Source: Hexactinellida sp. DTS-2022
Taxonomy: Eukaryota; Porifera; Hexactinellida
Length of the DNA: 64,000 bases
NCBI GenBank assembly: GCA_028753945.1
Contig: JAPNXP010000013.1
Coordinates: forward strand, 1,984,001-2,048,000
Reading direction: 5' to 3'
The position numbers were made by a program, and so were the translations under genes. Shown here piece after piece: positions 1 through 42,735 of this stretch. The stretch's first letter is position 1, and each line of letters opens with the position of its first letter. Under the pieces are notes generated by a model that was not told where the DNA came from, ran no database searches, and was given only the letters and a program-made list of their open reading frames with translations.

Positions 1-54
1 AACTCTATCAAACTCTATCAAAAAACTCTATTAAAAACTTGAACAAGCTTCATA
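1..54 (+). repeat. Short AACTCTATCAA direct repeats upstream of Helitron ORF
   Basis: AACTCTATCAA occurs twice and a diverged third copy (AACTCTATTAA) follows, directly before the ATG at 55. They may be leader or subterminal repeats of the Helitron; the window edge hides the rest. Confidence 0.4.
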
Positions 55-15967: not shown

Positions 15968-16526
15968 TTAGCTCTGTCGTACTGACGTACTCAACCGAAG
16001 TGATGCTGCCACATGTTCATCTGTTAGTCTTGATCGTACTTCCGATTTTGTAAGCTTCAGCAATGAAAAGGTTTGCTCACAAATATAGGTGCTATCAAAG
16101 AGAGAAAACATTCTCTGCGCACGTCTCCTTAAGTTTGGATAATGTTCGCGTGGAAGTGTTTTGTAGAACGCAAACAAATCCCTTTTACTGAATTGAGTTT
16201 GGAAGTCCGCTTTGATGATTGGATCGCTCTGGAGAGATAGCAGTTCGAGATGTAGGTTTGCAGATGCAGTATCAATATCAAATATAATTGGATTGGATAT
16301 CAAGTAAACTCAGACTGATACCTACGAAAATCAACGGAGCGTTCTGTAAATTGCTCTATCAGGCGATCGATTGACGGAATGTAGTCCTGTCCTGATCGAC
16401 GATCTTTTCCCAGAGATTTTAGTAAAGGGAAATGGGTGATGTCTTCTCGTGCCAGTTGGCGTTTTAGAATCCTCAATTTGTTGGTGAAGGCATCGACACT
16501 GGCAATCATATCCAAGATGTTCTTTG
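15968..16526 (-). pseudogene. hAT transposase, C-terminal part
   Basis: 3' part of the hAT gene whose 5' part is at 22820-23916. It encodes a region like LQGKSKNILDMIA, then after a stop/frameshift the C-terminal dimerisation segment with FSLFDSTYICEQTFSLLK, typical of the ZBED5/GTF2IRD2-like hAT branch. About 60 expected residues between the two parts are missing at the Academ-like insertion point, so that insertion coincided with or was followed by a deletion of about 200 bp. Confidence 0.8.
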
Positions 16527-18700: not shown

Positions 18701-18762
18701 GTACAGTCTAATTTAACTTACCCTACCCAGTTTATTATCATTATATATATTTTTCTTGACAG
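18701..18762 (+). other. Small spliceosomal intron in the Academ-like gene
   Basis: GTACAG at the 5' end and a pyrimidine-rich TTTTTCTTGACAG at the 3' end. Joining the sides gives ALQKEY-R-WLKQ, in agreement with the expected protein after a local frameshift. Confidence 0.6.
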
Positions 18763-20537
18763 GTGGCTGAAACAAGTTAATCGAGTGGTGTCGACTGAAA
18801 AGAACCAGGGAGATGAGGCAGTTTCCTGGTCTGCATACCATGCTAGCCTTCAACCTCCCAATGAAGCATTAGATAGCTGTGTGACACACAATTCTCTTCT
18901 GCCCTTTTTTTTACGATCAAGCTCACTCCGTAGCCATGATTCGCCACTCAATGGATGTAGTGAAGAAGGCAGTTGATATTCTAAATCCTGGACAGGTGCC
19001 CGTCATCACTATGGATCAGCCTCTGTACGCAATTGCAAAACAAATCCAGTGGAACTGGACAACAAGCCACGGCGAAATCAATTCATTATATTTTTTGGAG
19101 GACTACATAAAGAGATGGCAGCTATCAAGACAATTGGCGATCTTCTAGATGGCAGTGGTTGGGCAGGTGCACTAGTACAAAGCAATGTTGCTACACCTGG
19201 TACGGCTGATTCATTTCTTCGGGTCGTTCATGTGTCACGCACACGACGAGCTCACCAGATCACAGCTTGCAGCCTGTATGTACTTCTGCAGAAAGCATAC
19301 TTAGAGTATTGCAATAGTTTGGGAGAGGAAGAGAATAGTTCGTCACTGGAAGATTGGTGCTCAAATAGGGCCGAATTATATCCACAGTTCAAGTTCTGGT
19401 CGTTAATCCTGCAGATGGAATTGGCAGTGATGGTCTACGTGAGATCCATAAGAGAGCCAGATTTCGAGCTATACATAGACGCTCTTACCAAGATCGTTCC
19501 CTGATTTTTCGCCTTGGACCATACTCATTACGCTAGATGGATCTATGTTCATCTTCGGGACATGGTTACACTAAAGGACGTTCATCCTACTGTGTTTTTC
19601 CGAGTTCCTGAAAGGGGACTTTGTTGTGAAGAAGACAATACGCAGATTCTCCGCTATTGCCATTGACCATGCCCACGAGCAAAATAATGCTTCTGTGAAA
19701 GATGATGGTGGAGCCGTAGGCCTAACTGAGAACCCTGCTGCTCTTCGACGCTGGATGGTGTCTGGACCTGAGATGGCCAGACCTATTGGAGAGTTTGAAG
19801 CAGCAACTGAGACTAGAAGAACACATGATATGAGACATCAAGAGGAGTCTAAACATGTACAATTGGCGTTTGCACGAGATGTGAAAAGTCTAGCAAATGC
19901 CATAGAAGAAATGAGAAACCCGTTCACTGAGAACAGCAGCGATCTTCTTGTACTGGATAGTAGAGACCTTGCTGATCCAGCCGTTATTAACACTGTGCGT
20001 AAAATTGAGAATTAGGAGAAGAGCAGTATGACACCTATGTTATTGATCGGCTTGTCAATCAAACAAAACCCATTTCAGCTCCCATCAAGAAGAACAATCT
20101 TCCCTGTTTAACCGGCTTCCTGTTCGAGAAAAGACTAAGTCACAGCTACAGCTAACTTCTCTGAAGAATGATTGTTCCCTATTTTCTCGGCTGTATGTTG
20201 CATCACAAGTACGTGGCGGTGACCTAGATGATTTTTTTAGCATGAAAATCATGCATATCCACCAGCGTTATCACAAAATGGTAAACTGAGATTGGGTACA
20301 AAGTCCGATCTAGTTAGATGCTTGGAGGACTTGGTGGTCTGCCAAGAGGACGACACGAATCCCAGTGTACAAGTTATTATTCTTGATTGATCTGTTATTG
20401 TGAAGATGCTACGTCCTGCTTCTGCAAAGACTTTCTCGGATTAGGCAAAACTAGTTTTTCTGCCATACATCCAGTCCCAGTTGCAATATGCAAGCTGAGT
20501 CGACATTATTTGGGACGAGTCAAACCCGACAACTTAA

Positions 20538-21257
20538 GGTTAAATTACCCCACGTGAATGAAAGTTCTTGTATTAATCTGTAATTGTGAGAAATAGATAC
20601 CTATACGATACAAAGCAATAAACCAAAAAGAAAATGTCCTTATCTATTATACTTTTTATTTTTTGTCGGTTTCAAGATTTGGCCAATACAAATCTCCCAT
20701 AGGGCGATTTTCAAAAGTGGTGGTAGATATTATGCGGTAATTTGGCAATGCGGCCATCAATGTTTGTTATCAGAATCAATATTTAAAGATTATGAGCGTA
20801 CTGAGTTGGTAGACGGTTTACATTTTTGAATTATGACTTGGAATTTTTTTTATCAAGCATTTAATCAAATTTCGCATAAAAAGATGACCTTTTTATTCAT
20901 TTTTTGGTTTCAGAAGGTCGCAATATTTTTTATTTAGATCTTATCAAAATTCTAAACCGGCCACCAACCGCTCATAACGATGATCTATGTGATATATCGC
21001 ACAGAATATGTCTTTAGCTATTAATGATCATCCAATCCACACACTTATTAGGTTGAGTCTGAAGAAATCCCCCTATGGGACTTTTGTATTACAATAAAAC
21101 TGCACGCCCCATAAAATCAAATTTATAAAAGATAATTCGATTTAGTTTTCAGTTTGGAACTAGCTATAATGCCTTCCATCATATATCAGAAATTTAAACT
21201 CCCACCTTCAAAACTAAATTCTTGTGTTTTTTTGGGTGAATCTGCCCTAATTTAACC
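20538..21257. mobile_element. TTAA-specific non-autonomous element, copy 2
   Basis: 720 bp, ends GGTTAAATTA / TAATTTAACC, flanked by TTAA at 20534-20537 and 21258-21261. Nearly collinear with 12274-12994. Removing it with one TTAA reads DNLKAETRRKGG in frame through the host gene. Confidence 0.9.
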
Positions 21258-22819
21258 TTAAAGGCCGAAACACGAAGAAAGGGGGGGAATGGTGTTCGGA
21301 GACGTGTGGAGCCTTCAAGTTTAGTTCCTAGAAACTGGCAAGAGTTTCTGCGCATTGATGAAAATAAAGTTGAGCTTTTCTCTTTCCTCGCACATCTATA
21401 GCATCAATTGACAGCGATAAACAGATAATCAGCACACATCACATAGAGGTACTTTGTAATCTTCCAAAAGATATCTCAAGGCTAGCTCCATGCACACATG
21501 AAGAGGCCTAGAGGCAGACACAAGGATCATTCAACATCTGGAAGATGCTATGAAAGAAGGGAATACCAAAGTATCAATATTCACAGTTGACAGAGATGTG
21601 GTAGTATTGGCAGTGACATCAGCCCAGCGTCTCAAGAAAGCTGAAATATGAATCGCTTTTGGTGCTGGAAAAAGCTTCCGTTACTTAGCAGCTCATGAGA
21701 TGGCTAGAGCTTTGGGGCCTGATCGGTGTATGGCTCTGCCAATGTTCCATGCGTTCACAGGCTGCGATACAGTGTCATGTTTTGCAGGTAGGGGAAAAAG
21801 GACAGCGTGGGACACATGGAAAGTCTAAGACGATGTCACACCAGCATTATGTTCGTTGATTGCTAACCCAGAATCCATAGAGAGTGTTATGAAGCCATTG
21901 GAGCGATTCGTAGTATTAATTTACGACCGCAACAGCAGCCTGCAATGTATCAATTAGGTCCGAAAGCAGCTCTTCACACAGAAAGGCAGATCAATAGAAG
22001 GGCTTCCCCCGACAAAAGAAGCTCTCATAAAGCACACAAAGCGTGCAGCTTATCAAACCAGTTACTCTTGGGCCCAAGCAATGGTTGCAGACCCAAAGAT
22101 TCCATCTCCGAGTAAATGGGGTTGGAAAAGTAAGGAATCAGGCGGCTGGGAAATATGCTGGACAACTCTTCCGGAAGCTACGAAGGTTTGTAGAGAACTG
22201 CTGCGGTGTGGTTGCAAGAAAGGTTGCAGAAAACAGTGCAACTGCCTAAAGGCAGCACTCCAGTGTACTGCACTTTGCCACTGTGGTGGGCTGTGCAGTG
22301 AGAACTAAAAAAAGAATCAACAATATTGTTATTTCTGTATTTTCTGATCACTACACTTGTCTAGCTTTCAATAAATTTGTACGATTGGTTAGTATCCATA
22401 TTAGTTGATTCGTACATAGTGGACATAACAAAATAAAAGGGGTCACTCAATAAGCTAGAAAAAATGTGCAATTCTGTGAAATTTCATGCCGTTGCTAGTG
22501 AACATCAAAGATCTCTCCAAATACGGTCTACATACACATTAAAATGTGGGAAATTAAGTGCTGAGCACAAATCTGAGAATAAAAAGTCGTTTAGAATGCA
22601 TCTGGATAATATAACCTTGATTTTTAAAAACGGCGATTTTCTTTTAGGGGTCAATTTTTTGACCCTCAATATTTTTTATCATGGGAAAAATCCAAGATGC
22701 CCTTATATCCAAAAACGTTTGGTATGATGTGCTCTTACTTTGTGCCAAGTTTCACGCTTTTATCATCAAAAGCACAATTTGACCAAAATGTTGCACTTAG
22801 CGGCTGCACTATTAACTCA

Positions 22820-23916: not shown

Positions 23917-24939
23917 TAAATAAGAAAAGTTACGAGTGTGATGTTGGCTGAAAATTCGACCAGCACAACTTCAGTCAATAAGTTGACTAACTTGCTGACA
24001 TCAGAATTAAATGATTTTTACAGGATTCGAAAGAGTAGAAACCTACGTTTATGAAACTAGCATTACAATTTAAATAATTTTTCATTTTCGACAAAAATAA
24101 TTGACCCCTGACCCGCACTAGTTCACCCACTTTTTTAATACACTAATTAGCACTAATTATCAAGCGGTGAAATTATGCATGTAAACTCCAGAGATATCTA
24201 CGTTTATGTTATAGAAATTTCATCAAAAATATTATGTACCTTTTGAAATACATATTAACGTTTGAATATTGAAGTTGTCAAAATCGAGTCTCCATTAAAA
24301 TCCCACTATTTATATGCATACAGCTAGCAAATAGAGTCAATTCCAGTTTGACGTAGACATTGGAAGTTATTAAATTAGATCACAAGCTTCAAGCTGATAT
24401 TCTATTACGTATTAATAATTCCTTATGAAGAGGATAATGTCAACTCACGCCTCTCATTCTTTGAATAGTCCTTTGATATTAGCAACACTATTTATTGTTT
24501 GTTTGCTTATTGAATCAATAAACTATTTCAACATATCAAACTAATCTTTTAATTTCAGAAATCATATACAAATCCCGCGATCCCGCAGTTATTTTATTTA
24601 TCTAATCTCGCCATTGATTGATCCAATACAGCCAAGAAACTTTACCATTTCTAACTTTGACTTGTGAGTATTGACTCTTGAGGTTCATTTCTTCTTATTA
24701 CATAAGATTTATGGTTTTACATATATTATATGAGGGATTTTCAACCTGGGGATCGTAAAGGCTTCCTTGGGAGGGCTCACGAAACGATTATCTTTATTGA
24801 TTAGATTTTAAAATTATTCAATTATTCATAAAATACAATATTTACTCAGGGCCGGATTAATTGTATATTTTCATTTTCTTCCCATACATACAAATTAGAC
24901 TTATCTCAACTCGCACCAAATGTAACAAGTGTTTATCAG

Positions 24940-25400
24940 ATGCCGAATACATGCTCCGAACCTTGTTGCACGAGTAACTATAATGCCGAAGATCGCATTC
25001 CGGTTTTCAAAATGCCTCAGAAATCAGATGAGCTAAGGGATGTTTGGGTTCGCGCTCTTCACAGGGAAGGTATTAATGATCTAAATACGATTTTTGTTTG
25101 AGTACAGCATTTCAGAGTAGAAGATATTGAATAAACACATAAGGTACCAAATGGAGATGGTACATATCACGAAGTCCAACGAAAAAATCCATAGTTGAAA
25201 GAAGGTACAGTGCCAGCCTATATACCAGGGTGTCCAAACTATTACTCTTCTCACCCTAATTCAAAACCAGACGCAGTCCTTCAAATCAAAAGATGACGAA
25301 CTACTCCAGTAAGCTTTTGCACTAAGTTTGAACTCACAGACTGAAGAGGAGGAAAGTACTTAATCGACAATATCCAGGACTTGAAAGATAAGGCTTCGCA
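24940..25400 (+). pseudogene. THAP N-terminus of the 15-kb element's transposase
   Basis: From ATG 24940 the translation starts MPNTCSEPCC and contains RIPVFKMPQKSDE and VWVRALHREGI, the core of a THAP C2CH domain. The expected second Cys is destroyed by a TGA (FV*VQHF; normally FxCxxHF). It continues as HKVPNGDGTYHEV, YIPGCPNYYSSHP and LIDNIQDLKDK with several stops. Together with the catalytic and OTU parts downstream on the same strand, it would form one THAP-transposase-OTU protein. The foldback at 25388-26128 interrupts it. Confidence 0.75.
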
Positions 25401-26128
25401 ACCGTGAGATTGGCCACAGGACCCCTATCAAAAAATTTCTGTTTAATATTGATTAATCTTATTCAACATATTAGCTATCTTTTTGTAACAGAGAACTTGT
25501 TTCTAGCTATCCTACTTTTCTAATTTCAACAATTATTGTGTAATTGGAACCAAAATGCTTCTATGAGAAAGCAATATTGAACTTAAATCAGGCGATTTGT
25601 ATACATCAGAGCACTATTTTTTGAAATGCGTTGATTTGAAGTTGATTTGAGCCTATACTAATTTAGTCCATATTAGTATACATTGCGTGACAGACTTCGA
25701 TTAGCGATATAAACTTTGAAACCAATAGGAATGCTTGAGTAATTTCGAAATGTCATGATATTCAAAAAATTCCAACTCGTCACTTCGTAGTATTGAATGT
25801 AAACATGAATTCAATTAAGTGAGTCTGTCACGCAATGTGCACTAGTATGTACTAAGTTAGTTTAGGCTCAAATCAACTTGAAATCAAAGCATTTCAAAAA
25901 ATAGAGCTATGATGTATACAAATCGCCTGATTTGAGTTCAATATTGCTTTCTCATAGAAGCATTTTGGTTCCAATTACACAATAATTGCTGAAATTAGAA
26001 AAGTAGGATAGCTAGAGACAAGTTCTCTGTTACAATAAGATAGCTAATATGTTAAATAAGATTAATCAATATTAAACAGAAAACTTTTGTTAGGGGTCCT
26101 GTAGCCTAAATCTCAGGGACGCGAAGCC
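25388..26128. mobile_element. Foldback element, arms about 290 bp
   Basis: Large near-palindrome: 25388-25700 is the inverse of about 25826-26128 (for example AGGCTTCGC, CAGGACCCCTA, AATCAGGCGATTTGTATACA on one side and complements on the other). The loop is about 120 bp. No ORF. No clear duplication was found. Confidence 0.85.
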
Positions 26129-26454
26129 TAAGGCCAAACATTTTTGGGGGGCCCCTAAGACTAAATACATATTAATGAAAATAAATTTATTAAGTATTAT
26201 TTTCTTAGATACATGAATCTTACATATCCATTAAACAACTTTTTTCAAGCTTTATTCTTGCCAAGTCGTCAATGATATCCGTGCGAAGACGCATGTCTAA
26301 CTAGTTAGACTTAAATTACGTACTATACATAATACGTTGCCACTTCGAGACATAATTATTAAACATTCAGATCACATTATTAATTGACGAAATGTCAAAC
26401 CAGTCAAAGTTTCTAAACAAAAACTATCATTTAATAAAAGAGATGTATTAAAAT

Positions 26455-26866
26455 TAGGGCTGAAACGATTATTCGAAATGTAACGAATGAATCTTTTTCT
26501 AAACGAACGAATATTCGAATATCGTTCGTTTGGATGACTAAGCATTAAATCAATTTCTAGCGACAAAATACATTGTAAAATAGGTTTTTGATCATGTTAC
26601 AATGGTATAATAATAGTTACGAAGTGTATTATACACAAGTTAACTAATAATCAGCTAGTTTAAGTGGGAATTTATAATTACGATATCTCTAAGCTATACA
26701 AAAGTCTTGTTGTTGTCAAAAATTAGTCAACGAATATCCGTTTCATTCTAATATTCGTCCAAACGAATATTCGTTTCGTAACGAATATTATTTTGCAAAC
26801 GAACGAATATTCGTTCAATCATTTCGAACGAATATTCGAATATTCGGTATATTCGTTTCAGCCCTA
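26455..26866. mobile_element. hAT MITE rich in AATATTCG
   Basis: Ends TAGGGCTGAAACGA and complement TCGTTTCAGCCCTA, with perfect duplication ATTAAAAT (26447-26454, 26867-26874). CGAATATTCG-type motifs recur near both ends, about ten copies in total. Confidence 0.85.
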
Positions 26867-26904
26867 ATTAAAATCAATCTAACTTCAATTACAAGGTAAT
26901 ATTT

Positions 26905-27345
26905 TGTTACTGTGCCGACTATACTCTAGTATAGTGGTCCAGTTCTAATCTTACAGCCTTTAATATTATTACTGTGCCGACTATACTATAGTATAGTGCA
27001 GCGGCGTAGGAACATTATTGTGTTTGGGGGGGACGCGAAAATCATCAACATTATTTCTATTCTCTCTTAGTTTGCTAAATACTCTTTGAATTAATAAATT
27101 TTTCTAAGATTGTTTAATAAAGTTTTCTTGCAGTAATTTAATCCAAAATACAAAAAAAACAAATTCAAATTAGAAAATTAGAACACCAGTGTTTGATGTT
27201 GGGGGGGCCACGGCCCCCCCCGTCCCCCCCATTCCTACGCCCCTGGTATAGTGGCCCAGTATTGAAATCACTGCCTTTATTATTATTATTTTTTTTACTG
27301 TGCCGACTATACTATAGTATAGTGGCCCAGTTCTAATCTTACTGC
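26905..27345. repeat. Tandem units with a CTATACTATAGTATAG palindrome
   Basis: Three units of about 65-80 bp, each with TTACTGTGCCGACTATACT and the palindrome followed by GTGGCCCAG. A hAT MITE (26999-27245) inserted in the second unit. Two related inverted copies lie at about 45465-45555. Confidence 0.75.
26999..27245. mobile_element. 247-bp hAT MITE with G/C runs
   Basis: Ends CAGCGGCGTAGGAA and complement TTCCTACGCCCCTG, with perfect duplication GTATAGTG (26991-26998, 27246-27253). Runs of 7-8 G or C are at both subterminal regions. Confidence 0.9.
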
Positions 27346-28088
27346 CTTGGTTTTTATTTATTTAGTCCATATCCGCTCTACAGGGCAGAGTTAGATTGCC
27401 CTGGAGCTCCAATTTTTAGAATCGATGTCCCATATGTTACAGATATGCATCTCGAGCCAAATATTTGATAAACCATTTTTTAATACCACTTTGACACCTT
27501 TGAAAGTTTGTCTGGTCCATAACTCAAAAAATGTCATACTAAATCCGCAATTTTTATTTCACAATTGGATTTATCATATAATTCTACGTCTGATGGGATA
27601 AGAAAATTTTTAATAATGGATTTAATTTCTGCTATAAATGGGGTTGCAATTACTTTGTTTACCCACACTTCAATTGCAGTAAAACTGTTGAATCTAATTC
27701 CATTGTTTCAACTTTTAATAATTATATTTATTTAACTTGTTAAATCCTACTCTGTTGATTCAACTTGGGGTAATTATATTGATTTAACTTATAAATTCCA
27801 GCTGGCTTCTATTTAATTGTAGTATTACTATACACTGGATTAAATAATATAATATAATACAAGGAATTTGTTGACTCAACTCAACCAACCGTGGATAACA
27901 TTGCTAAAATAAATAACTAATAATATAATTTATTATCAATACATAATGAATGAATGACATTAAACTCAAGATGGTCTATGATAGAAACAAACGTCAAATA
28001 TATTTACCGTTCCTTTTGACTCGGACAAATTAACAAATGGTTCTTGACACCTTGAGGCGTTGATGACTTGGCGAAAAAAAAATCCAAA

Positions 28089-28196
28089 ATTGCAAGCCTG
28101 TGCCGACAGCATGTTCCTTTGGAGGCACTATCAATAAAACACCTCCAAAATATAGTGCCACCAAAGGTGCATGCTGTCGGCACAGGCTGCAAATTT
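28089..28196. repeat. Compact hairpin, 40-bp arms
   Basis: The arm GCAAGCCTGTGCCGACAGCA onward pairs with its near-complement ending GCTGTCGGCACAGGCTGC. The arms are about 40 bp with few mismatches and the loop is about 20 bp. ORF calls on both strands here are by-products of the palindrome. Confidence 0.85.
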
Positions 28197-28675
28197 GTAT
28201 TTTTTTTAGAAATAGGTTCTCAACATTAGTAGTCCGACAGTGTAGAACTTCAAAGAACACAACAGATATTTTAAAAGGTAAAATACTTATTACAAATATA
28301 TGTTCATTGAAAAAGAAAATTTAAACAACTTAGCGGGAGTGAACGATGAATAAATAAAGGACAATCATATCAATGTTATAAATTATAAAATCGTATATTG
28401 AATTTGGTTGGCTTATAAATAATAGAAATTTGCATGCATCAATATCAATTCATAAATTAAAATTAGTAACACTATATCCGATAATAACGGACACAATATA
28501 AATATTAGCATACTTGCTTGACACGATGAGTCCATCTGCCCAATACATGAAGCCTCTTTTTAAAAAAATTTCAAAAATTCATCTAAACGCCCCGGAGCCG
28601 CTAAAAGCGCTGGGCCCCCCAAATACGCGGGGACCTAGGCCATGGCCTACTTGGCCTATGCGGTAATCCGGCCCT

Positions 28676-29161
28676 GTTTCAGTGCAACACAATAATGGAG
28701 AGAACAAATATGCACGCCATGTATCTGGTATTCAGCGAACACATCTAGGTGAAATTGTACAACATAAATCTGTTTCAAAATATTTTCATACACAATTTGG
28801 TTATATGGATAATGTTGTCGAGTACTGTAGTGGTAATTTTTCTCATCTTAAGACCCAAGATTGCTTAAGACAGATAAAATTTGAAGTTAGCTCGTCTAAC
28901 ATATTTTCAAACGATATGATCACGGATATTTCTGCAACTCAGGAATACTACCGTGACTTATTAAATGAGAAACCAATTCCTGGCTACGTACAATATTTTG
29001 TTAAGGAACCGTTTGTTATCCATTTATACACTATGCAACAGATAGAGTTATTGAAACTTTTAAATAAAGAGATAATTATATTTTTGGATGCTATGGGTTC
29101 TCTTATTAGTAAACCTCAATCCGTCACAAAACCAATCGACTATTATGCACTCACTCTACAG
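28676..29161 (+). pseudogene. Transposase body of the 15-kb element, part 1
   Basis: About 160 clean codons: RHVSGIQRTHLGEIVQH, then FGYMDNVVEYCSGN, PIPGYVQYFVKEPF and IIIFLDAMGSL. The last is the probable first acidic residue of an RNase-H-like catalytic core (LDATGS in relatives). The frame runs to TLQ and is cut exactly at the CTCTACAG duplication of the hAT at 29162. It resumes at 31676 as HPDYHTSPIPVAEM. The superfamily is one I know from hydra, aphid and sponge genomes, but I cannot name it with certainty. Confidence 0.75.
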
Positions 29162-31667
29162 CAGGGCTCTTCAATTGGTGGCCCGCGGGCCAAAAGTGGC
29201 CCGCTGCCTATATTTTGGTGGCCCGCCCAATCTTTTCACTTTATATATTTATTCGATATTCTTTCGCTCATAGCTACATGCTCTGCAACTGAAACTGTAA
29301 TTTATCCTTCTAGGCCCTGGGATATAGTAGTTACTTGATCATTCGAATATTCAAATTTATGTTTAACTATTATGCAACCATTGGCATAGTGTTTTACAGC
29401 ACGTTACTTTTCCCGATATTCTTCATTAAATTTCCACATGCATTAATATCCCCAATTGCATTTCTTGCATTGAGCTTGTAGTCTTGTATCCATATTATGT
29501 ATAGCACATATTGTGTTTTATTATTACCTATTTGTTATTAGCGTATAAATTATGGCTACTCCAGGTACGAAAAAGTTCAAGCCATCAGCAAATCGGAACT
29601 TTAATACTTCATGGACACAAAACTATCTTTTTATACTTTTAGATTCATCTTCGAATCCTAAGCCTAAGTGCATATTGTGTTTTGAAAAAGTTTCAGAGAT
29701 AAAAGAATACAATATTAAACGGCATTATGAAACCAAACACAAAGCCTTTGAGGATGTCTACCCCGTTGGTTCAGTAACTCGCACCTTGAAGATAGAGAAT
29801 TTAATTTCTTCACATCAACGTACAAGTGGAATCTTGATACAGTCTTGTACTCAGCAGGAAAAGGCTACAGCAGCCTCTCTTAGGGTAGCCTGGATACTTA
29901 CAAAAAAGAAAAGGCCGTTTACTGAATCGGAAACCATCAAAGAGTGTATGCTTGCAGTGTTGGAGGAAGTTGTGAGTGACAAAAAAATGAAGTCAGAAGT
30001 CATTGAATCAGTTGAACAAATTCCTCTCTCTGACACATCTACTATGCGTAGAGTAGAACTTTTAGGAATTGAAGTTTTTGAAAACCTGTTGGTCAGTCTT
30101 AAAAGTGCTGAGTTCATTTCTCTTGCAATTGACGAATCTACTGACATTAGAGATTCAGCAAAACTTTGCATCTATGTGCGATTTTTTTGTGGGAAATCTT
30201 TCCGTGAAGAATTGCTTGCATTAATTCCGCTAGAAAGCTACACAAGTGGGGAGGCTATATATAAAAAATTAACATCCTTCTTCGAATGAAATCATCTTGA
30301 TTTGCAAAAGATACGTCTTTTAGTAACTGATGGTGCCCCGTCGATGATAAGAAGGATAAAAGGAGTTGCAGCAAGATTGTCCAATGCTGTACCTCACATA
30401 CAATCTTTACATTGTATTATCCATAGAGCAGTGTTATGCAGTAAACTTTCCGATGAGTTGAAAGATGTCATGGATACTGTAATGGCAATCATAAATTTCA
30501 TCAGAAGTACATCCAGTCTTCAACATAGACTTTTCCGTAATTTGCTTGCTGATGCCTCTGCAGAGTACCAAGATTTATTGCTACATTGCGATGTTCGTTG
30601 GTTAAGTAAAGGAAATTCTCTTGATCGATTCTGTGACCTCAAAAATGAAATTCTATTGTTTCTGAGTGACTGTTCACACAAGAATGCGAAGAAATATTTG
30701 CATTTGCTTCAAGAAGATCAATTCATGGCGAGGGTACATTTTTTGAGTGATATATTTGAACATTTAAATATACTAAATTTGCAACTACAAGGTAGGCATA
30801 AGACTATAATTGACCTAGTTGAAAAGTTAAGAGCGTTCAAAGTCAAGTTAAATCTCTTATCAAATGACTTGAATTCTGGAAAGTTCTTACATTTTCCTAG
30901 GCTGGCACTTTATGTCAATAAAACTTCAACCACCGTAACCAATACAATGACAGATTTCATGATCAAGTTAATGCATAACTTTGACGAAAGGTTCCGAGAA
31001 TTTAACTTGCCAATAAATATAATGATGTTTGCACGTGATCCATTCACCATTTCATTCGAAGATAACTTTATTGAAAACGGCAAACAGTTACAACCAGCAA
31101 TTGAAGAAGGTGCTTTACAATTATAATTAGTTGATATTCGAGCGTCTAGTTTTCTTAAACAAAGTTTAGCTGATGTAGGAGGACCTGTCAAGTTCTGGAG
31201 CGAGTATATTGATCAAGGACAGTTTTTTAATTCAAGAAGAATAGCCATATATTATCTATGTTTGAATCTACCTATACATGTGAGTCAAGCTTTTCTCATA
31301 TGAATGCCATTAAGAGGACAGAGCGCAGTGCACTGTCAGACGAAATACTAGAAAATTGCATGAGAATCGCACTGACTGATCATGAACCAAATTTTCAAAT
31401 GTTGGCACGACGAATGAAATGCCACTTCTCTCATTGATATTATTATTCAATTAGTGATTTAGCTACTTTTCATTGATTTATTCATGAATTAACAATTACA
31501 ATCAATATAGATTCAAATGTTAATTTATGAAGTATGAACACAAGAAGAAGTAATTCAATTGAAATAAGCGAATATTTAAGTTATGTAGTTGAACAATTAA
31601 TAGTGGCCCGGGGAAGTGACTGATTTTTCAAAAGTGGCCCGGGAATAAAACTAATTGAAGAGCCCTG
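29162..31667 (+). mobile_element. 2.5-kb hAT transposon, perfect TIR and duplication
   Basis: Perfect 15-bp ends CAGGGCTCTTCAATT / AATTGAAGAGCCCTG, with duplication CTCTACAG (29154-29161, 31668-31675). Subterminal GTGGCCCG motifs are at both ends. It encodes the transposase at 29552-31437. Confidence 0.93.
29552..31437 (+). pseudogene. hAT transposase (ZBED5/SCAND3-like), lightly damaged
   Basis: Starts MATPGTKKFKP. BED-type zinc finger with KPKCILCFEKV and IKRHYETKH (residues about 36-62). RNase-H-like core: SLAIDESTDI (first Asp), LLVTDGAPSM (second Asp), LHCIIHRAVLC, DVRWLSKGN. C-terminal dimerisation region with YTCESSFSHMNAIKRTERS and RRMKCHFSH. About 630 residues, family-typical. Only three lesions were seen: TGA at 30287, TAA at 31124 and a frameshift near 31250. 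That suggests a young but inactivated copy. Confidence 0.9.
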
Positions 31668-31675
31668 CTCTACAG

Positions 31676-31762
31676 CATCCAGACTACCATACTAGCCCGA
31701 TACCAGTAGCAGAGATGATTAGCTCGGACCATGGTACTGCAGAGATATCGCATTTTCTAAAT
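31676..31762 (+). pseudogene. Transposase body of the 15-kb element, part 2
   Basis: In-frame continuation after hAT removal: HPDYHTSPIPVAEMISSDHG and ISHFLN, cut at TCTAAAT by the element starting at 31763. SPIPVAEM with SDHG is a recurrent block in this transposase type. Confidence 0.65.
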
Positions 31763-34468
31763 CACGGACTACTATAATACCCGGACGTGACAAAACCAAA
31801 CCACAGTCAAAAATGCGTAGGCTGAACATTGTATGACTGGAAATATGATCAATTCTGTATGTTTAGTCACTAAATTTGGTATCTAGCACAATCTTTGGGC
31901 GCTGAATTCAAAAATGACAATTTCAAGGTTCAAAAACTCACTCCCGCCCTAATTTTGGCAAAAAGGCGTAGTCACACCCAAATATTGTCGATTCCGTATT
32001 TTTGTTTCTATTACTTCATCATAACGCTGGTTCCGCCTTGTAATCGCCCATTATTAGAAATGTCCAAATTTTTCAATATTTTTGCACACACTGCGGAAGG
32101 ATGTTTTCTATCTATAGGACTTTGGTTTTCATGGATTCGACGATTATTTCCAGAGTTATGAACGTTTCAGTGGAGTGGCCTTTCATTATCAAACTCGGTT
32201 TTATAACACCAAGGTTCTTGAACACCGTAAATTAACTAGTAAATGTGATAACAATGTTTCAATATTCAGACATATGATAGTCAGGAAATTTTTGCAAAAC
32301 TCAACAAAAATTTATGTAAAAGTGAATATTGCAAAAGTTATAGCCCTTCGGCGATCTTTAGGGTACGGATTCTTAACTAATTTGTAACTCAGAGAGGAAA
32401 AGAGATAAATTCAAGTAACACTAGTGAAAAATGATCAGCACTCATGGTTTCCCATATGTAAATAATACATTTTGTGAGCCTAGGACGCACCGTTTTCGAC
32501 ATTGCCATATATGGTAGTGTGAATGTGACAAATTTTGATGACACATGCAAATTTGTATCTCCTAAACGGGAGACTCTAGAGCTTAGCTCTAAAGTGTAAT
32601 CACATTGATATATCATCTCTAAATCATTGCAAAGTCAAATATCACTCAAAACCATGGTTACCTTGCTATAAACTCGAATGCCCATATATGGAGGTGTCAT
32701 GTGACATCAAAAGAGAGAAAATCCAAATTCAAAAGTATACTAGAGCTTAGTTCTAACTTTCAGTCACTATCAGTGATTGAATTCCAGCAAGATGGCTTAT
32801 TTAAATTCCATCCCGAATCAATATTCTTCGCTGTAGACGTGTCGAAAATCGGCTCTGCCATCTGAAAACCATCATATCTAATTTTAGACTGCCACAATTT
32901 TTAAAGCTTAGTTTTGGGGAACTTTTTGAAGCTATAACGCTGAGATTTGAAATATAGCACTCTAATAAGTAAACCAAGACCTGTTACAATTCCGATTGTC
33001 CGAATTCGTCCTTAAAATACAAACTGGGGCCCTTTGGGTGCAAAAAAGTGGCTCAAATGTAGGAAAAACTATCCGATTTTTCTAAAATCGTGCAATTCCC
33101 AGAAAAATTTGACTTTTTTATTATTAAGAAGCCCCTAGAAGATCTAAAGGGGACATGCTATAATGTTTTAGACCAAAAATTAGAATTGTGCCTTTTTCAA
33201 TTTTTCAAGACTAAGCTTTTAGTACTAAATTATTCTCTATGGGAGCTTAAATCCAGCTTAGAACAAGTTAGAAGCCTTATATTAGAGACTAGCAGTCTTA
33301 AAATAGCTTATACATTATACTCCCTATGTATAGGAAGTATAGACTTACTAGGATCAACGAGTAGTGTGTTGTAGAAACTAACTAATTCTACTAAGGCGGA
33401 ACCACCGTTATTTAATAAACAAATATGGTCAATTCCATATTTTTGTTTCTATTACTTCATCATAACACTAAATTCGCAATATCCTCTTAACTAGGAACGA
33501 TATTGATGAACATATGATTGATAAATTGTTCAGCTAAATATATATTACTACGTGACCTTCGATATACAAGGCCTGAGTGCTAAGCGAAAATTTGTTTACC
33601 ATGGATTACTTAAAATGGATTGAAAAATGGAGAATTTATCTTTATTCCAATAATTAGCAATGATAGGGCTGAATAGTGTATTATAACTATATAGGAATAT
33701 GGTATCCAGGTATACATAGCACACTACAGAATTGTGATATGTCATCATCTGATGACGTTTGGTAATTTTGGTTGCGAATTATCTTGCTTTTCTAGCCTAC
33801 TTTTAACATAGTTAAACGCGTTATACGTAAATGTTCAAAATTGGGACATAGTTATACCCAGAAGTATTCGAATAAAATATAGCGAAATTATAAATGGAAT
33901 GTTTATACATTCCTTGGTTGCCATGGAAAATGTATTTTCCTAAAATGTGCCATACCTCAAAAACTATGAATGTTATGTAAACTAGGCTGGTTCTGATCTG
34001 TCCGGAATAGGTAACTTCCTATTCATCGACAATACATTTTCTATGCCTAACTTCAATAATCTTTGAGATAGTGAGATAATTAACACTTAATTCATTACCA
34101 GGTAATGACTCATTATCTCAAAGATTATTAAAGTTAGACATAATATTGAAAACATTTGGAAAATATTGAAAAATTTGGACATTTCTAATAATGGGCGATT
34201 ACAAGGCGGAAGCAGCGTTATGTAAACAAAAATATGGAATCGACCATATTTGGGTGTGACTACGCCTTTTTGCCAAAATTAGGGCGGGAGTGAGTTTTTG
34301 AACCTTGAAATTGTCATTTTTGAATTCAGCGCCCAAAGATTGTGCTAGATACCAAATTTAGTGACTAAACATACAGAATTGACCATATTTCCAGTCATAC
34401 AATGTTCAGCCCACGCATTTTTTACTGTGGTTTGGCTTTGTCACGTCCGGGTATTATAGTAGTCCGTG
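31763..34468. mobile_element. 2.7-kb element with about 310-330-bp TIRs
   Basis: Left arm (31763 to about 32094) is the inverse of the right arm (about 34162 to 34468); outer end CACGGACTACTATAATACCC. A 7-bp duplication TCTAAAT lies at 31756-31762 and 34469-34475. The interior has no convincing gene. Part of it (32380-32830) resembles 49915-50270, and 33548-34140 is a copy of the foldback at 48.1-49.1 kb, so it is itself a mosaic. Confidence 0.8.
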
Positions 34469-34475
34469 TCTAAAT

Positions 34476-34890
34476 TAATGGTATTTAAATTCAAAGTTAG
34501 TTCTCAACAAAGAAATACACATAACTAGAATAGAAATTGATTACAGTTGGGCTATGATTCATAGCACTTGTATAGCCTTTAATAAAATTAATGTTTAGGC
34601 TACCTAGAGAGTTGTTGGAAAGTAGTAAGTACAAATGTAAAGGTTATGAATAGCTTAACTGTTATACATTTATGTTCCGTCCACATAATGCATAGATTAA
34701 GTCATAACTTACATAATAAATTTAAGGTTCAAAAAAGTTAAAAACATCTTATTTTACACATGTATGCTGTAATTTTAAAAGCAAAAAGTATGCAAGAGAT
34801 AAATAGGGTTTTCGTAGGATTAAGTAATATTTTATCTATCAGTATTATAATGATTTTTGTTTAGTGGAATTAAATGGTTTACCTTATTAT
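34476..34890 (+). pseudogene. Transposase body of the 15-kb element, part 3
   Basis: Across stops and one frameshift it reads RIEIDYSWAMIHSTCIAFN, LGYLESCWKVVS and IHLCSVHIMHRLSHNL. IDYSWAMI is the likely second acidic motif (DFSWALI in relatives), and the C-x2-H-x2-H stretch follows. It is interrupted by the MITE at 34892. Confidence 0.55.
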
Positions 34891-34891
34891 A

Positions 34892-35241
34892 GGAAATTAA
34901 CGCGCCAAGAAATTAACGCGAATTTCTCCAAATCGCGTTAATTTCCTTCGTTAATTTAATTTCCTGCTATTTAGCAAAATTATACAATGGATGGACAAAC
35001 TTCCGAGCTACATATTTTCTGATGTGTAACTAGTTTAAAAGGATATACCATGTCTATCAAGTAGATTAGAAGCCTATTTGGGCACAATAATAGTATTAAA
35101 TCAGGAGATTAATAATCCTGAAATATTTTATAAAATTTATTCGCGTTAATTTCATGTATTTGAAAATGTTCAGCTCCAATTCGCGTTAATCTCATGGAGC
35201 GTTAATTTCCTTCGCGTTAATTACATGGCGCCTTAATTTCC
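34892..35241. mobile_element. TA-flanked MITE made of CGCGTTAATTTC repeats
   Basis: Inverted ends GGAAATTAACGCGCCAAG and complement CTTAATTTCC. The mirror symmetry extends outwards as CTTATTATAGG / CCTATAATAAG, so the duplication may be TA or longer. CGCGTTAATTTC modules recur at both ends and just inside. Confidence 0.75.
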
Positions 35242-35246
35242 TATAA

Positions 35247-35545
35247 TAAGTTAGTTAGAGGCGACATACTATATCAACTTGACTATGTGGAACCACCTGA
35301 AGATGATTGCACGCAAGTAGAAAACGCCACTACATATCGTGCTAAATCACCCTTTGGTAGACATTTTGATTCACTAGTATCTAAGAATCGTAATGATTTA
35401 AAAACTGATAAAATTAGTATGCTAAATGGCTGCTATTGTTCCGATATTTTAGAATATTTGTTAACATACTATTTGCCAATCTTGCCTTTATGGACTGGAA
35501 TTATATTATCTCGAACTGCTGATCAAGAAGAAACTAAAGCAAGTA
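35247..35545 (+). pseudogene. Transposase body of the 15-kb element, part 4
   Basis: About 95 clean codons: YVEPPEDDCTQVENATTY, SPFGRHFDSLV, LNGCYCSDILEYLLTYYLPI and LPLWTGIIL. It is in frame to ETKAS at the TA insertion site of the next MITE. GCYCxDIIEYLLTYYLP is a conserved block before the third acidic motif. Confidence 0.75.
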
Positions 35546-36282
35546 CAGGTATCCCTCTTTTTACGCGGTAGATGCGTTCCTTGAAAAGCCCGCGTAAAAC
35601 GAAATCGGCGTATAAAAAACGGTCTATTCTCATAGTAACATATATTAAACTAATAGATGCGTTTCCAAATATTATCAACATCGAATAAAATTTTAAATAC
35701 CTAGTGTTTAAACATTCAAACCTCCAACATCCGGACCTCTAAGATAGCCAAGGTTTTCCGTGTGCATGTTAATCCCATGGGATTTCCAATATGGGATTGG
35801 AATGGAAATTATTTTAACCTATGGGAATTCTGATAGAAACCAACTTGTGAGAATACTTGGGAATTCCCACAGAAAGGGAATTGTGGTGTGAGGCGAATTA
35901 AAATTACCTTCACACCGCAACCCTGCACCTACGGGTACCTCCCACAACCGGGTATCTTTAGTGTGTATAGTGAAGCAAATATGTATTTATTTGATCAATA
36001 ATATATTTGGATGAACCTACTAAATAACTAATAAACATCTCAAACTATCTACTATCCCTAAGTAATGATTTTTTGTTTTTTGGAAATGTAGAACTGCTTT
36101 GTTGCCACTAAATCTTAAGAATGATCTAAAATCTCGCTAAAAGAGAGAATTAATTGTATGAAAATCATAGAAAAACCGCGTAAAACGAGTTGAGGATCGC
36201 GTAAAAAAGTTTTGGTCATAAAAAATTGTTCCGCATAAAACGAAAACGCTTAAAAAAAACCGCGTAAAACGAGGTATTACTG
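35546..36282. mobile_element. TA-flanked MITE (TTTTACGCGG ends)
   Basis: Ends CAGGTATCCCTCTTTTTACG and complement CGTAAAACGAGGTATTACTG, with TA on both sides; 737 bp. ACGCGTAAAAC modules recur at both ends. Removing it with one TA gives ETKASNAIAENWF in frame. Confidence 0.9.
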
Positions 36283-36590
36283 TAATGCCATAGCAGAAAA
36301 TTGGTTTAGGATAGTTATACATCCAATATTCGAATCTAATAGACACATCAGACCTGGTGATTTTTATTCGTACAATGTATAGTAATATTCATGATAGAAT
36401 TTCTGCTTTCAAATTTGGATTTCATCCCTTGGCTTCTAAAATATTTAAAGCAAAGAAGCGTAAACTAGAAGTACCTAATGAAGAAGATTGTAAGGTGGAA
36501 TGGTCTCGGAGGAGCAAAATTCATAGGAGTTATATAACCCCAGATATAGATAATGTAGAGAAAGTTTTTGAAAATGTTATCAAACTTTAA
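36283..36590 (+). pseudogene. Transposase body of the 15-kb element, part 5
   Basis: NAIAENWFRIV (probable third catalytic acid, E in ENWF), HIRPGDF, then after a 1-bp shift RTMYSNIHDRISAFKFGFH and KIFKAKKRKLE, ending with a basic tail and a TAA at about 36590. It completes the transposase domain before the OTU region. Confidence 0.7.
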
Positions 36591-36882
36591 ATAATAATGT
36601 ACAGTCTAAAAGAGGTAAATATTTAAAGAGAAAGATTTTGGACTGAATTTCCGCGAAAAAAGAGGTAAAATCCATAGCCCCTGATGTGGTCCTCGAGGCA
36701 GCTGCTGTTGATATTATCACTGACATCGATATAATTGAAATAAGCCACTCTCCCACCCTGGTCAGATAGATATTTGTCATAATCTGAATTTTAATGTTGT
36801 AATATCGCCAGTACATAGCAAGATTAACAACAGTAATGTAAAGAGACCACTGAATGAGTATGTACCTAGCAAGACTTATTGT

Positions 36883-38015
36883 GTCCCCGGAATGGAAATT
36901 GTTTGTTTTCTTCTATAGCATATTGGATTACCGGTTGTTCGGATAATTGTCACGAAATACGGAAACTTATCGTTGATAGTATAATTAATTAATTAACAGT
37001 AATATGTGGAAAATTTATTAATAATGAATACCCAAATACTTACAGAAATATCGGAGATTATGTGGCTAAAACTGGTATGAAGAGTAATGCCAAATGGGGC
37101 GGAGATTTAGAATTATTCGCAGCATGTCTCTTATTTAGGACAGATATTTGGGTCTTTTCGAAAGACACGGGTAACACATGGAATGTTTTCTCTGGAAAAG
37201 GTGCTAGTATAGATCAGGTAATTAATACACCACCCGCCAACACCACTGGATATTTTACATTGTACATACTGGTAATCATAGGCGCCGAAAGTGGGGGGTC
37301 AGGGGGGGTTACCCTCCCTGGTTTTTGTCAGGTAGGGTTTCACCCCCCCCCCCCCCCCCTGGCTGAGGAAAGAGTCAGGAAGGGTATACCCCTCCTGGTT
37401 GGTCAGGCAGGGTATATTAGACATATTCTTTATTGTTAAAGTTAAAGTAGAAAACATACACGTAAACCCATTGAAAAATTATAATTCCATAAGGAGTCCT
37501 TCTAAATAACATTGGATTATTAATATATGTATACAATTATGCCCGTCAACATAATGATTTTCAGCCACCATAGCAGTGGCGAAACAGGGGGATGCGCTAG
37601 GGGGGGGGCGTCCCCCCCCCCCGTAAATTGAAGGGGGGGCAACATTATTGGTGCGGGTGTTACCGTTCCCTCTGGATAAAAAATACAATATTCAATATAA
37701 TTTAGTACAATAAAATATACGTATAATTCATTCAAAACAAATTGATATCTGGGTATCTCGCAGTCCATTTTTTTCTGGGGGGCTTGCCCCCAGAACCCCC
37801 CAAGGATCGCTCGCAACACTCGCTCCGCGCCCCCCAACTTTAATCTTATACTTGTAAACTTTGCGACAATGCGCCATGGGAATCGTTTTTTTGACCTTTC
37901 ACATTTAAATGTAAAGTTACACCCCCCCTGGCGCTGGAGAGTTTCGGCGCCTATGCTGGTAATCATTATGAACCAATCTTGGAATTATCAGAAAAGGAGA
38001 TAGATACGAAGTTTT
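36883..38015 (+). pseudogene. OTU protease of the 15-kb element, inactivated
   Basis: OTU domain with NGNCLFSSIAYWITGCSDN (36890 on), SNAKWGGDLELFAACLLF (37080-37135) and the His block NHYEPILEL after 37958. The usual GDGNC is RNGNC, so the catalytic-site Asp is replaced by Asn. A TAA near 36985 and a hAT MITE at 37274-37958 break it. It is the same domain type as in the Helitron and the Ginger1 gene but clearly distinct in sequence. The MITE duplication also shifts the frame by one base. Confidence 0.8.
37274..37958. mobile_element. hAT MITE with CATAGGCGCCGAAA ends, inside OTU
   Basis: Ends CATAGGCGCCGAAA / complement TTTCGGCGCCTATG, with duplication CTGGTAAT on both sides. The interior has G/C runs of 8-17 and a region (37570-37870) homologous, inverted, to 48230-48490, so it is itself composite. 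Confidence 0.85.
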
Positions 38016-39013
38016 AGAATATTTATTTTCGCGCGCATATTATGGTTATTCTATTTTAATTGTGTCGACAACGATTAACGATTAATGATTAACGATTAAT
38101 TTATAAATGTATTAATGATATTCGTGTACACACTTTATGTAAAAATTTTAATTATATAATAAATTCTTTGTATAATCTTTGAAATCTAATAAGTCATCCT
38201 ATTAAACTATCAAATTATTTAATATCTTATTTATGACCGAGCTCATCTCCTTGCAATAATTAAAACAATACTCTCTCTCCATTTGTGAAAAAGGCTATTC
38301 AGTCTACAGAATTTGGTATTAATTAATTGATGGAGTAAATTAGCCCGTTTACTATTATTGAGGGACTGTGTCCTTGGGTAATAAATGCTTTGAAATACCT
38401 CAAATATATTAATAGAATGAGAGGCGCGAGTTGACATTATCCTATTCATAAAGAATTATTAATACGTAATAGAATATCAGCTTGAAGCTTGTGATCTAAT
38501 TTAATAACTTCTAATGTCTACGTCAAACTGGAATTGACGCTATTTGCTAGCTGTATGCATATAAATAGTGGGATTTTAATGGAGACTCGATTTTGACAAC
38601 TTCAATATTCAAACGTTAATATTTCAAAAGGTACATAATATTTTTTGATGAAATTTCTATAACATAAACGTAGATAGCTCTGGAGTTTACATGCATAATT
38701 TCAGCGCTTGATAATTAGTGTTAGTGTATTAAAAAAGTGGGTGAACTAGTGCGGGTCAGGGGTCAATAATTTTTGTCGAAAATGAAATTTTTTTTAATTG
38801 TAATGCTAGTTTCATAAAAGTTTCTACTCTTTCGAATGCTGTAAAATCATTTAAATTTTATGTCAGCACGTTAGTCAACTTATTGACTGTAGTTGTGCTG
38901 GTCGAATATTCAGCCAACTTCACACTCGTGAAAAAGTTACACAAATACTAATAATTAAGAATTAAGTTCATTGTTCTGGAACGAATCCCTATTTTATACC
39001 CATAATTACGATC

Positions 39014-40463: not shown

Positions 40464-42735
40464 GGATTTTATGAAGATGTTCAGGTGGCTTTATCTCCGC
40501 AACACGTTAAAGACATTCGTGAAATTGATTCATATATCAAAGATATTTCGAGCTACCATCAAAATTCTTCCCAAAAAGAAATCAAACAAGCTATTGTCAT
40601 TCTTCAATCTTGAATTGACAAGTTTGATCTTAATAATGAACCTGATACATTATTAGCAATCCCTCGTCTCCAATTTATATTATGCCAACTCGAAAATATC
40701 TTGCTTCCCAAGCAAAGATACAGATACAATGTGATTACTCTTACACTTGCTTTAAAGGCCCAACTTATTTCTCCTGCTTGTTATAGTTTTCTTCAAACTT
40801 CTCAATGTCTTACACTTCCACATCAAAGTACATTACGAAATCTTACTTCAAAATCTGGTTTGGAATATGATTTTAGAGAATTTCTAATTAAATCAACGGA
40901 GAAGTTTACTAAACAACAGCGTCAGCTCGTATTAAACATCGATGAGGTTTATGTACAGTCTGACTTTAGCTATAAAGGAGGAAAGATTTATGGCTCATCC
41001 AGTTCGAATGTAGAAGTAGCGGCAAAAACTGTACTTGCTTTCATGGTGACTAGCCTTTTCGATAAATGGAGTGAAATAGTTCGTCTATATCCACTTGCCT
41101 CTACGGATGCTAAAGAAGTCTTTGAGATAGTGACGACTGTCATAGCTAATATTGAAAAGTGCAACCTCAATGTTGTGGTATTATGTTCAGACAACTTATC
41201 GCTAAATCAAAATTTATTCAAATTATTCTCGCACAAGCATGTAATTGAACGATCAGTTCCCCATCCTTGTGACCCCAATCGTCCTTTATTCCTCATTTTT
41301 GATTTTGTCCACATCATTAAATGTATTCGTAACTATTGGCTTAACCAACATGATCCTCAGTGTTGTTTATTTTTCCTTCTTTTGAAGATACTATTAACTT
41401 TAATTTACCAGCTGCTGTATCCAGAGCATCCTTTGAAGATATTAGGAATCAATACAGACTTGAGCACTCTTCCACCTTGAAGCAAGCATATAAATTGACC
41501 GAAAAGGTTTGCTGGCCTACCAATTTAGAGAGGCAAAATGTTAATATGCGTTGGCTGTGTTTAGCGAATCGACAAACGCTAACTTGAGGCTAAATAAACA
41601 AATTCAGGGTGCTGCTATTGTAACTCAGACTCATGAATTTCTAGATGTTATAATTCATATTTGGAAAATCTTTAATGTTAACAGTCTAATGAAAGGTAAC
41701 CGCTTAAGAGATTCCTTTTCAAACCCACTCATTAATAATGATGAACGTTTTTCATTTCTTAGTAATGTTGTTCAATGGCTAGATACTTGGAAATTGCTAC
41801 CTGGTAAGGTTGGAAAGTTAACACCCCAAACTTTCTCTAGTTTCAGACATTCTTGTTTAGTACTTCCTCAAATAGTTAACTATCTTACAAGTGACACATG
41901 TGGTTTCGCTTATATTATATCCTCCCGTCTTCAGAACGATCCCCTTGAACACCGTTTTGGCGTTTATCGACAAATGTCAGGTGCTCAGTATAGTATATCT
42001 GTCCTCCAAATTCTTGAAAGTGAGCGAAGATTAAAGCTTTCTTCAATATTAAAGTTATTTCAGAAGGATACTTCTGGAGAAATGTCACTTAAAGACTTTA
42101 TTAAGACATTTACCTCGGAGGAAGAACCGGTTGAAATAACTCCATTAGAAGATTTCTTGTCGCTGTTGGACAATTCTATTACCCTTCCTGAAGTAGATGA
42201 AACTACTCTCCTAGCATTGGCATTTGTAGCTGGATACGCTGTCCATTCTACATTCTATAAATACAAAGATAAGTTTGGGGAATGCTTTGCTAGTTTAACC
42301 AAACAGAGAGATATTCATTTTGAAAATCAAGATAGTGTGAATCTACTCATTCAAATAACAGATCGAGGAGGATTAAAGTATCCATCAATGGAGGTTCTAG
42401 AATCGTACATTCTCCTTTGGAAAATCTATACTGCAATTGAAGAGCAACCGATATTATTCAGCAAATTTATTTCATCAACCCCGCGAAAAATTCTTGTATC
42501 TCTCTCTACTATCAAAATAGAAGATACATCATCTTTGACAGAATTTTGGAGAAGTAATTGCGACTACTGTCTCAAGGTTAAATGGGATCTATTGAAGAAA
42601 ATACTTTGTACCATCTCTAATTGCATTCTGTCAAATAAAGTTCGCAACTTAAATTCACTCAAAGTACTCAAATCTTCAAAACGAACTTCTAATATTGAGG
42701 ACAACAGGAAATTAAAGAAATTCAATCTTAATTAA
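40464..42735 (+). pseudogene. P-element/THAP9-like transposase, nearly complete body
   Basis: Begins after a credible acceptor (TTCCTTTAG|GA, 40463) with FYEDVQVALSPQHVK. Core: LTLPHQSTLRNLTS, LVLNIDEVYVQSDFSYKGG (first Asp), KTVLAFMVTSLFDKWSE, VVLCSDNLSLN (second Asp), PHPCDPNRPLFLIFDFVHI and IRNYWLN, then after a frameshift near 41350 TLKQAYKLTEKV and ERQNVN, then after another near 41560 LTPQTFSSFRHSC and RLQNDPLEHRFGVYRQMSG (catalytic Glu). The final 394 codons are uninterrupted to TAA 42735. Only about two frameshifts and one stop (40611) were seen. No THAP exon was found directly upstream. Confidence 0.88.

Follow-up and report, generated by a model that had tools for sequence, protein, structure and literature searches.

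A probable dead DNA transposon with long inverted ends, an RNase H-like core and an OTU domain in a hexactinellid sponge

Introduction

What kind of mobile element encloses sequences for a THAP zinc finger, an RNase H-like core and an OTU protease domain between inverted arms of ~550 bp? All three lie on the plus strand between positions 23,932 and 38,929 of a 64,000-nucleotide stretch, hereafter called the window, from the sponge Hexactinellida sp. DTS-2022 (assembly GCA_028753945.1, contig JAPNXP010000013.1, positions 1,984,001 to 2,048,000 of the forward strand). A first inspection of the letters and their open reading frames (the sequence-only reading) had described a 15-kb element with Mutator-like biology that may define a transposon lineage of its own. 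The analysis presented here indicates, with a probability of roughly 0.7, that the locus is a dead autonomous cut-and-paste DNA transposon of ~4.7 kb that had landed in a hAT element and afterwards itself took up insertions of other elements.

Borders, insertion site and true size of the element

The left arm and the reverse complement of the right arm (Table 1) are identical at 522 of 547 aligned positions, with 25 mismatches and 21 gap positions, and the sequence ACGAGTGTGA forms the start of both element ends. The arms carry no notable internal repeats beyond one 14-base and one 15-base pair, and neither has a further blastn match of at least 80 bp elsewhere in the window. The long arms around plus-strand coding sequence are therefore as first described. 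The near 9-bp duplication that had been proposed also stands. In this single element copy the duplication is 8-9 bp in length, with one base different between GAAAAGTT on the left and GAAAAAGTT on the right. An alternative placement uses the exact 9-mer AAAAGTTAC that is found on both sides, the element ends then differing by 4 bp. A 9-mer common to both sides and no more than 4 nucleotides from both borders occurred for only 122 of 200,000 random position pairs in the window.

The sequences on either side are parts of a single hAT copy, whose dimerisation domain is located on the minus strand at 15971-16309, and therefore the borders of the element are very likely true insertion borders. A separate hAT copy was considered as a model of the empty site and was dropped when positions 15752 and 39339 proved to be the two ends of one hAT. 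The same host hAT holds a second nested element at 16537-22811, which has inverted ends of ~330 bp that are 83% identical and a series of plus-strand frames at 17018-20012, with no Pfam match in the four frames tried.

The size of 15 kb does not hold. Six later inserts, blocks A to F, account for 10,303 of the 14,998 bp when one copy of each duplication is counted, leaving 4,695 bp for the element; this total includes A and D, whose borders are inferred. For block A, it is the left border that is inferred, with 24847 as an alternative start, and a duplication was looked for and none was found. Insert C contains no frame longer than 103 codons, and its interior resembles stretches at 48535-48957 and 49913-50245.

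An interrupted gene with a core and an OTU tail

Once the inserts are set aside, the interior reads as a gene that fills the space between the arms. The THAP sequence begins ~440 bp past the left arm, and the stop codon is located ~360 bp ahead of the right arm. The reading frame is identical before and after every insert that has a clear duplication (4/4). Across 12 pieces, the chosen frame has 8 stops in 840 codons compared with a mean of 77.5 for the other two frames, although the pieces and frames were picked by eye, which favours a gene. Frame changes are also present, and this copy of the element is dead. The earlier description of an arm-bounded element with a gene for an RNase H-like core and an OTU domain is borne out by the retained frame and the low number of stops, and the placement of core and OTU in one gene is well supported. 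If the THAP stretch is counted, the transposase would have roughly 900 residues.

The OTU domain identified earlier is recovered at 36.4 bits (E 8.7e-9) when the pieces within 36882-38017 are joined, and a single piece reaches 23.8 bits, above the Pfam cut-off of 23.3. We take its NGNC and NHYEP motifs to sit where the catalytic Cys and His of OTU proteases do. Another OTU domain (E 4.1e-9, 37.5 bits) is present in the window within 56632-59415, where it follows a Gypsy-type integrase piece (rve, E 1e-6, under the cut-off) in an arrangement that looks like Ginger1. The OTU domains of the element and of this Ginger-like copy share 26% identity over 146 positions.

The core motifs LDAMGS, DYSWAMI and AENWF that had been pointed out occur in this order on the plus strand. 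By inspection, the core begins with an Asp strand (IIIFLDAMG), two further strands (YYALTL and PIPVAEMIS) and a helix, and continues with a second Asp strand (ITRIEIDYSW), a CxxH strand (TVIHLCSVH), a helical insertion and a Glu helix (NAIAENWFRI). To the eye this order appears to fit an RNase H fold with a D-D-CxxH-E layout, in which Asp, Asp and Glu would be the catalytic residues. The spacing from the first to the second D is ~74-76 residues (76 when counted, two of these residues coming from a duplication) and that from the second D to the E is ~200; both values are approximate because the pieces were joined, the residues were chosen by eye and a damaged stretch was represented as eight X.

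The sequence-only reading had suggested comparing the core with known transposase superfamilies by profile, and this comparison, for which Pfam and a set of bacterial IS256 sequences were used, returned no superfamily match. Specifically, no MULE (Mutator-like element), Transposase_mut or rve match to the core was found in Pfam. The P-type core model PF21787 was likewise not found, whereas in the same scan it matched the decayed P element of the window at 54.5 bits. The hAT dimerisation domain PF05699 is absent from the core and OTU pieces, and scores above its cut-off in the hAT pieces at 59877-61808 and at 15971-16309. A four-sequence search of the core against the hAT and P proteins of the window gave a best E of 0.045, which is not significant. 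The IS256 set was built from PF10551 and PF00872 matches in bacterial genomes, drawn from 69 candidate frames at 41 loci, and comprises 23 aligned sequences (22 unique matches and the seed). When the core was compared with the IS256 profile by hhalign, the top match placed the CxxH stretch in register.

The THAP domain covers ~24952-25215 and scores 33.6 bits (E 6.9e-8) if each stop is replaced by X; the open piece alone reaches 18.7 bits, under the Pfam cut-off of 23.9, and a search against PDB gave a weak THAP2 match (E 0.036). The zinc finger noted earlier is thus upheld as a domain at 33.6 bits. Its place in the same gene is only probable, as it lies inside a 13-bp inverted pair, and we put the chance that it was part of the same protein as the core and OTU at somewhat better than even. 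A second THAP-like stretch at 9909-10172 has 34.7% identity to the THAP of the element over 49 residues, and the single piece of it that was scanned has no Pfam THAP match.

Table 1. Positions of the element, its parts, its host copy and its later inserts in the window
Feature	Position	Strand	Remarks
Host hAT copy holding the element	15752-39339	-	Perfect 8-bp duplication GGCTAGTT
Left target-site duplication copy GAAAAGTT	23924-23931		8 bp, one base shorter than right copy
Left inverted arm	23932-24496	+	Aligned to right arm
THAP stretch, probably start of transposase gene	24940-25389	+	5 stops in 150 codons
Nested block A	25391-28675		3.3 kb; fold-back 25391-26129, hAT-like right end at 28676
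Core piece with first Asp	28676-29161	+	LDAMGS, ~29084
Nested insert B, hAT copy	29162-31667	+	8-bp duplication CTCTACAG, hAT-type domains
Core piece past insert B	31668-31762	+	HPDYHTSPIPVAEMISSDH
Nested insert C	31763-34468		~320-bp inverted ends; 7-bp duplication TCTAAAT
Core piece with second Asp and CxxH	34469-34885	+	IEIDYSWAMI (DYSWAMI ~34539), HLCSVH
Nested insert D, like a miniature inverted-repeat element	34886-35250		Borders inferred
Core piece	35251-35545	+	SPFGRHF ... LPILPLWTG
Nested insert E	35546-36282		TA duplication
Core piece with Glu	36283-36587	+	AENWFRI (AENWF ~36293), RPGDF; internal frame change
OTU, Cys motif and middle	36882-37276	+	NGNC
Nested insert F	37277-37955		hAT-like ends; duplication CTGGTAAT
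OTU end, His motif and stop codon	37956-38017	+	NHYEP
Right inverted arm	38380-38929	-	Aligned to left arm
Right target-site duplication copy GAAAAAGTT	38930-38938		9 bp

Comparison with known elements

The element shares with MULE and MuDR elements inverted ends that can reach hundreds of bp, duplications of ~8-11 bp, the D-D-E spacing and the CxxH motif (PMC6446971, PMC13359780, passages of each). For arthropod MULEs, the passages found in PMC13359780 give D-D spacings of 60-76 (84 in Ghost) and D-E spacings of 120-135, with values of 151, 156, 172 and 214 in four families. The spacings of the element fall inside this range and therefore neither exclude nor prove that it is a MULE. It differs in that its core has no MULE profile match. 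Two earlier proposals are thereby each upheld in part. Mutator-like biology agrees with the long arms and the 8-9 bp duplication, and in its working the element probably resembles the Mutator type, but we do not count it among the MULEs because the profile match is missing. That the core is unlike MULEs agrees with the lack of a Pfam MULE or transposase match, although its D-D and D-E spacings do not set it apart. The term OTU occurs 0 times in PMC6446971 and PMC13359780, and THAP occurs 0 times in PMC13359780. Some Mutator elements carry a Ulp1 protease and some Helitrons carry an OTU domain, according to passages of PMC2836005.

Rehavkus elements encode a PHD finger and carry a minisatellite ahead of their right end, neither of which was found here. 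The pieces of the element that were scanned contain no PHD finger, and the tandem repeats between 37000 and 38929 are a 17-base run of C at 37343-37359, which is inside insert F, and a 30-base array of 4.3 copies of a 7-base unit at 38070-38099.

Among elements with a THAP finger, which here is a probable part of the gene, Galileo of the P superfamily is similar in combining this domain with long inverted ends, which measure 0.5-1.2 kb in Galileo (PMC3688188, PMC3573991, in part), and its THAP domain has been shown to bind within these ends (PMC3688188, in the part covered). Galileo differs in its P-type core, which is undetected here. Its duplication is 7 bp (PMC3573991, same limit), with 7-8 bp expected for P and Galileo elements, and that of our element is 8 bp on the left and 9 bp on the right. 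The Galileo passages seen do not mention OTU, and no search for this term was made in PMC3688188 or PMC3573991. Kolobok likewise has a THAP domain and a DDE core with CxxH, but the passages found in PMC6004289 and PMC9587614 describe TTAA duplications and RR...YY ends, whereas the present element has ACGAG ends and is flanked by GAAAAGTT and GAAAAAGTT.

Ginger1 resembles the element in that the cut-and-paste transposases of several of its families end in an OTU domain at the C-terminus, but its core is a Gypsy-type integrase (PMC2836005, in part), which is undetected here. Dada has a DDE core with DxxH, yet passages of PMC3706591 assign to it duplications of 6-7 bp and small RNA genes as targets, compared with 8-9 bp and a hAT copy for our element. 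No Rfam or tRNA match was found anywhere in the window.

Overall, we tentatively place the core somewhere in the broad CxxH assemblage that includes MuDR, P, hAT, Kolobok and Dada, with a general build nearest that of MuDR. The element is filed in no superfamily because its core has no Pfam match and its likeness to IS256 does not exceed that of shuffled sequences.

Alternative explanations

Several observations weigh against the reading of this locus as one transposon with a three-part gene. A perfect 13-bp inverted pair of hAT-like shape, in which CAGGGCCGGATTA at 24847 faces a complementary copy that ends at 28676, encloses both the THAP stretch and block A, and each member occurs once in the window. 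The THAP stretch has 5 stops in 150 codons compared with 3 in the other 690, a heavier decay that means THAP may have another history, although this contrast is inflated because the core pieces were picked around damage. Directly ahead of block A the three frames, that of THAP among them, are open for just 2, 15 and 19 codons. The joined core has no Pfam family match at E values up to 10, with one chance match at E 0.077, and its best PDB match is MOB1 at E 0.19. In the IS256 comparisons, 2 of 60 shuffles equalled the hhalign score of the core, and hmmsearch gave -1.9 bits, a score matched by 19 of the 187 shuffles that were scored (500 were made). These IS256 tests offer no support; as a single decayed sequence gives them, like the Pfam scan, low power, they are weak evidence against the relationship. 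In addition, the window holds only one copy of the element.

The 13-bp pair raises the possibility that a hAT-like insert spanning 24847-28676, with CAGGGCCGGATTA ends, carried the THAP sequence with it, and that the true element consisted of the core and OTU and has lost its front. The perfection of the pair, its single occurrence and the excess of stops in THAP all suit such a history. However, the pair lacks a flanking duplication (TATTTACT on the left and TTTCAGTG on the right), its ends are unlike past 13 bp, where 73 of 100 shuffles align equally well, and at 25391 there begins another sub-block, which has a fold-back of its own. Moreover, the core reading frame starts at the insert border at 28676, and to the left of 24847 all frames are closed within 15 codons, so there is no other source for the missing front and the core would be frontless. 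We regard a foreign THAP as a tentative alternative, more doubtful than a THAP that belongs to the gene. A more radical separation, in which arms and gene are unrelated and the gene was picked up from elsewhere by a non-autonomous element with long ends, as Pack-MULEs do, would accommodate the single copy and the unfamiliar kind of core. It strikes us as the least probable explanation: the gene spans the interior from edge to edge with a transposase-like catalytic layout, and no other autonomous gene is present between the arms save in later inserts that have their own ends.

If the locus is indeed one dead transposon, its affiliation can be drawn in several ways. It might represent a divergent lineage of MULEs to which THAP and OTU were added and which is new only by these extra domains, an option that we rate a little short of an even chance. 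The long arms and the 8-9 bp duplication are as expected for such a lineage, the D-D and D-E spacings lie within the 60-84 and 120-214 residues given for arthropod MULEs in the passages of PMC13359780, the top hhalign match to IS256, which is kin of MULEs, aligns CxxH with CxxH, and Ulp1, a related protease, is found in Mutator elements (PMC2836005, in part). Against this stand the lack of a Pfam MULE or Transposase_mut match, an IS256 likeness at the level of shuffles, and the absence of THAP and OTU from the MULE passages found. Unlikely, in our view, is the grander proposal that the core stands for a separate branch, at superfamily level, among the CxxH DDE transposases, distinct from MULE, P, hAT, Kolobok and Dada and marked by a THAP front, an OTU back, ~550-bp ACGAG ends and a 9-bp duplication. 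A P-superfamily element of the Galileo type with an added OTU domain is more improbable still. Although THAP and long arms are as in Galileo (PMC3688188, in part) and the duplication is near 8 bp, P-type models are absent from the core while PF21787 is readily detected in the P element at 40614-41477, and the core has no sequence similarity to that element. Galileo duplications are also 7 bp (PMC3573991, in part), and the membership of THAP is unsure.

Proposed mechanism

In the mechanism that we envisage, an N-terminal THAP finger would bind sites in the long inverted ends, and the RNase H-like core would excise the element and join it to cuts staggered by ~9 bp. The OTU protease at the C-terminus might then remove ubiquitin from the transposase itself or from host factors that act in repair or silencing. 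We infer the staggered joining and all of the roles given to THAP and OTU; the OTU step, which follows a suggestion made for Ginger1, would be the least supported part of the scheme.

Search for relatives

Viral contigs, searched with protein pieces of the element, the OTU at 58738 and DNA patterns, yielded no convincing relative. One viral match to a DNA pattern (L001) gave nothing convincing in tblastn, and another of 13 residues (L077) was judged to be due to chance, the best E for other pieces being 0.023. In prokaryote genomes, the pattern ENWFR-13-RPG had 14 matches, and neither tblastn nor visual inspection marked any of them as a relative. One piece queried against phage proteins found no match, and three pieces run against PHROGs gave nothing below E 0.05. 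Because the collections searched are of viruses, prokaryotes and phages rather than animals, the absence of relatives says little.

Among the literature matches listed, none describes a transposon that combines THAP with OTU, Repbase reports being outside the search. In one set of these matches, the sole paper with both terms is PMC3712983, which concerns vessel gene expression. As the literature matches are only partly covered and Repbase reports fall outside the search, it is quite possible that the element has been described before.

Other features of the window

The P element lies at 40614-42732, where the first of two frames matches PF21787 with an E of 2e-14 (54.5 bits). The plus-strand frames at 43-4979, one of which has a PIF1-like helicase match (E 9.4e-51), probably represent a disrupted Helitron. 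A minus-strand frame of 274 codons at 46451-47272 has no significant Pfam match and contains the sequence MGCSFSK, a possible myristoylation start.

Implications

If relatives confirm the arrangement proposed for this dead transposon, an OTU protease of the sort seen in Ginger1 and in elements of the Helitron type would occur together with another transposase core in an element with long ends, and perhaps also with a THAP finger as in P and Kolobok. This would be a further example in favour of the suggestion, made in passages of PMC2836005, that ubiquitin and SUMO proteases are active in transposition. Since the core is invisible to Pfam, copies elsewhere would be unannotated or would be mistaken for THAP or OTU genes of the host.

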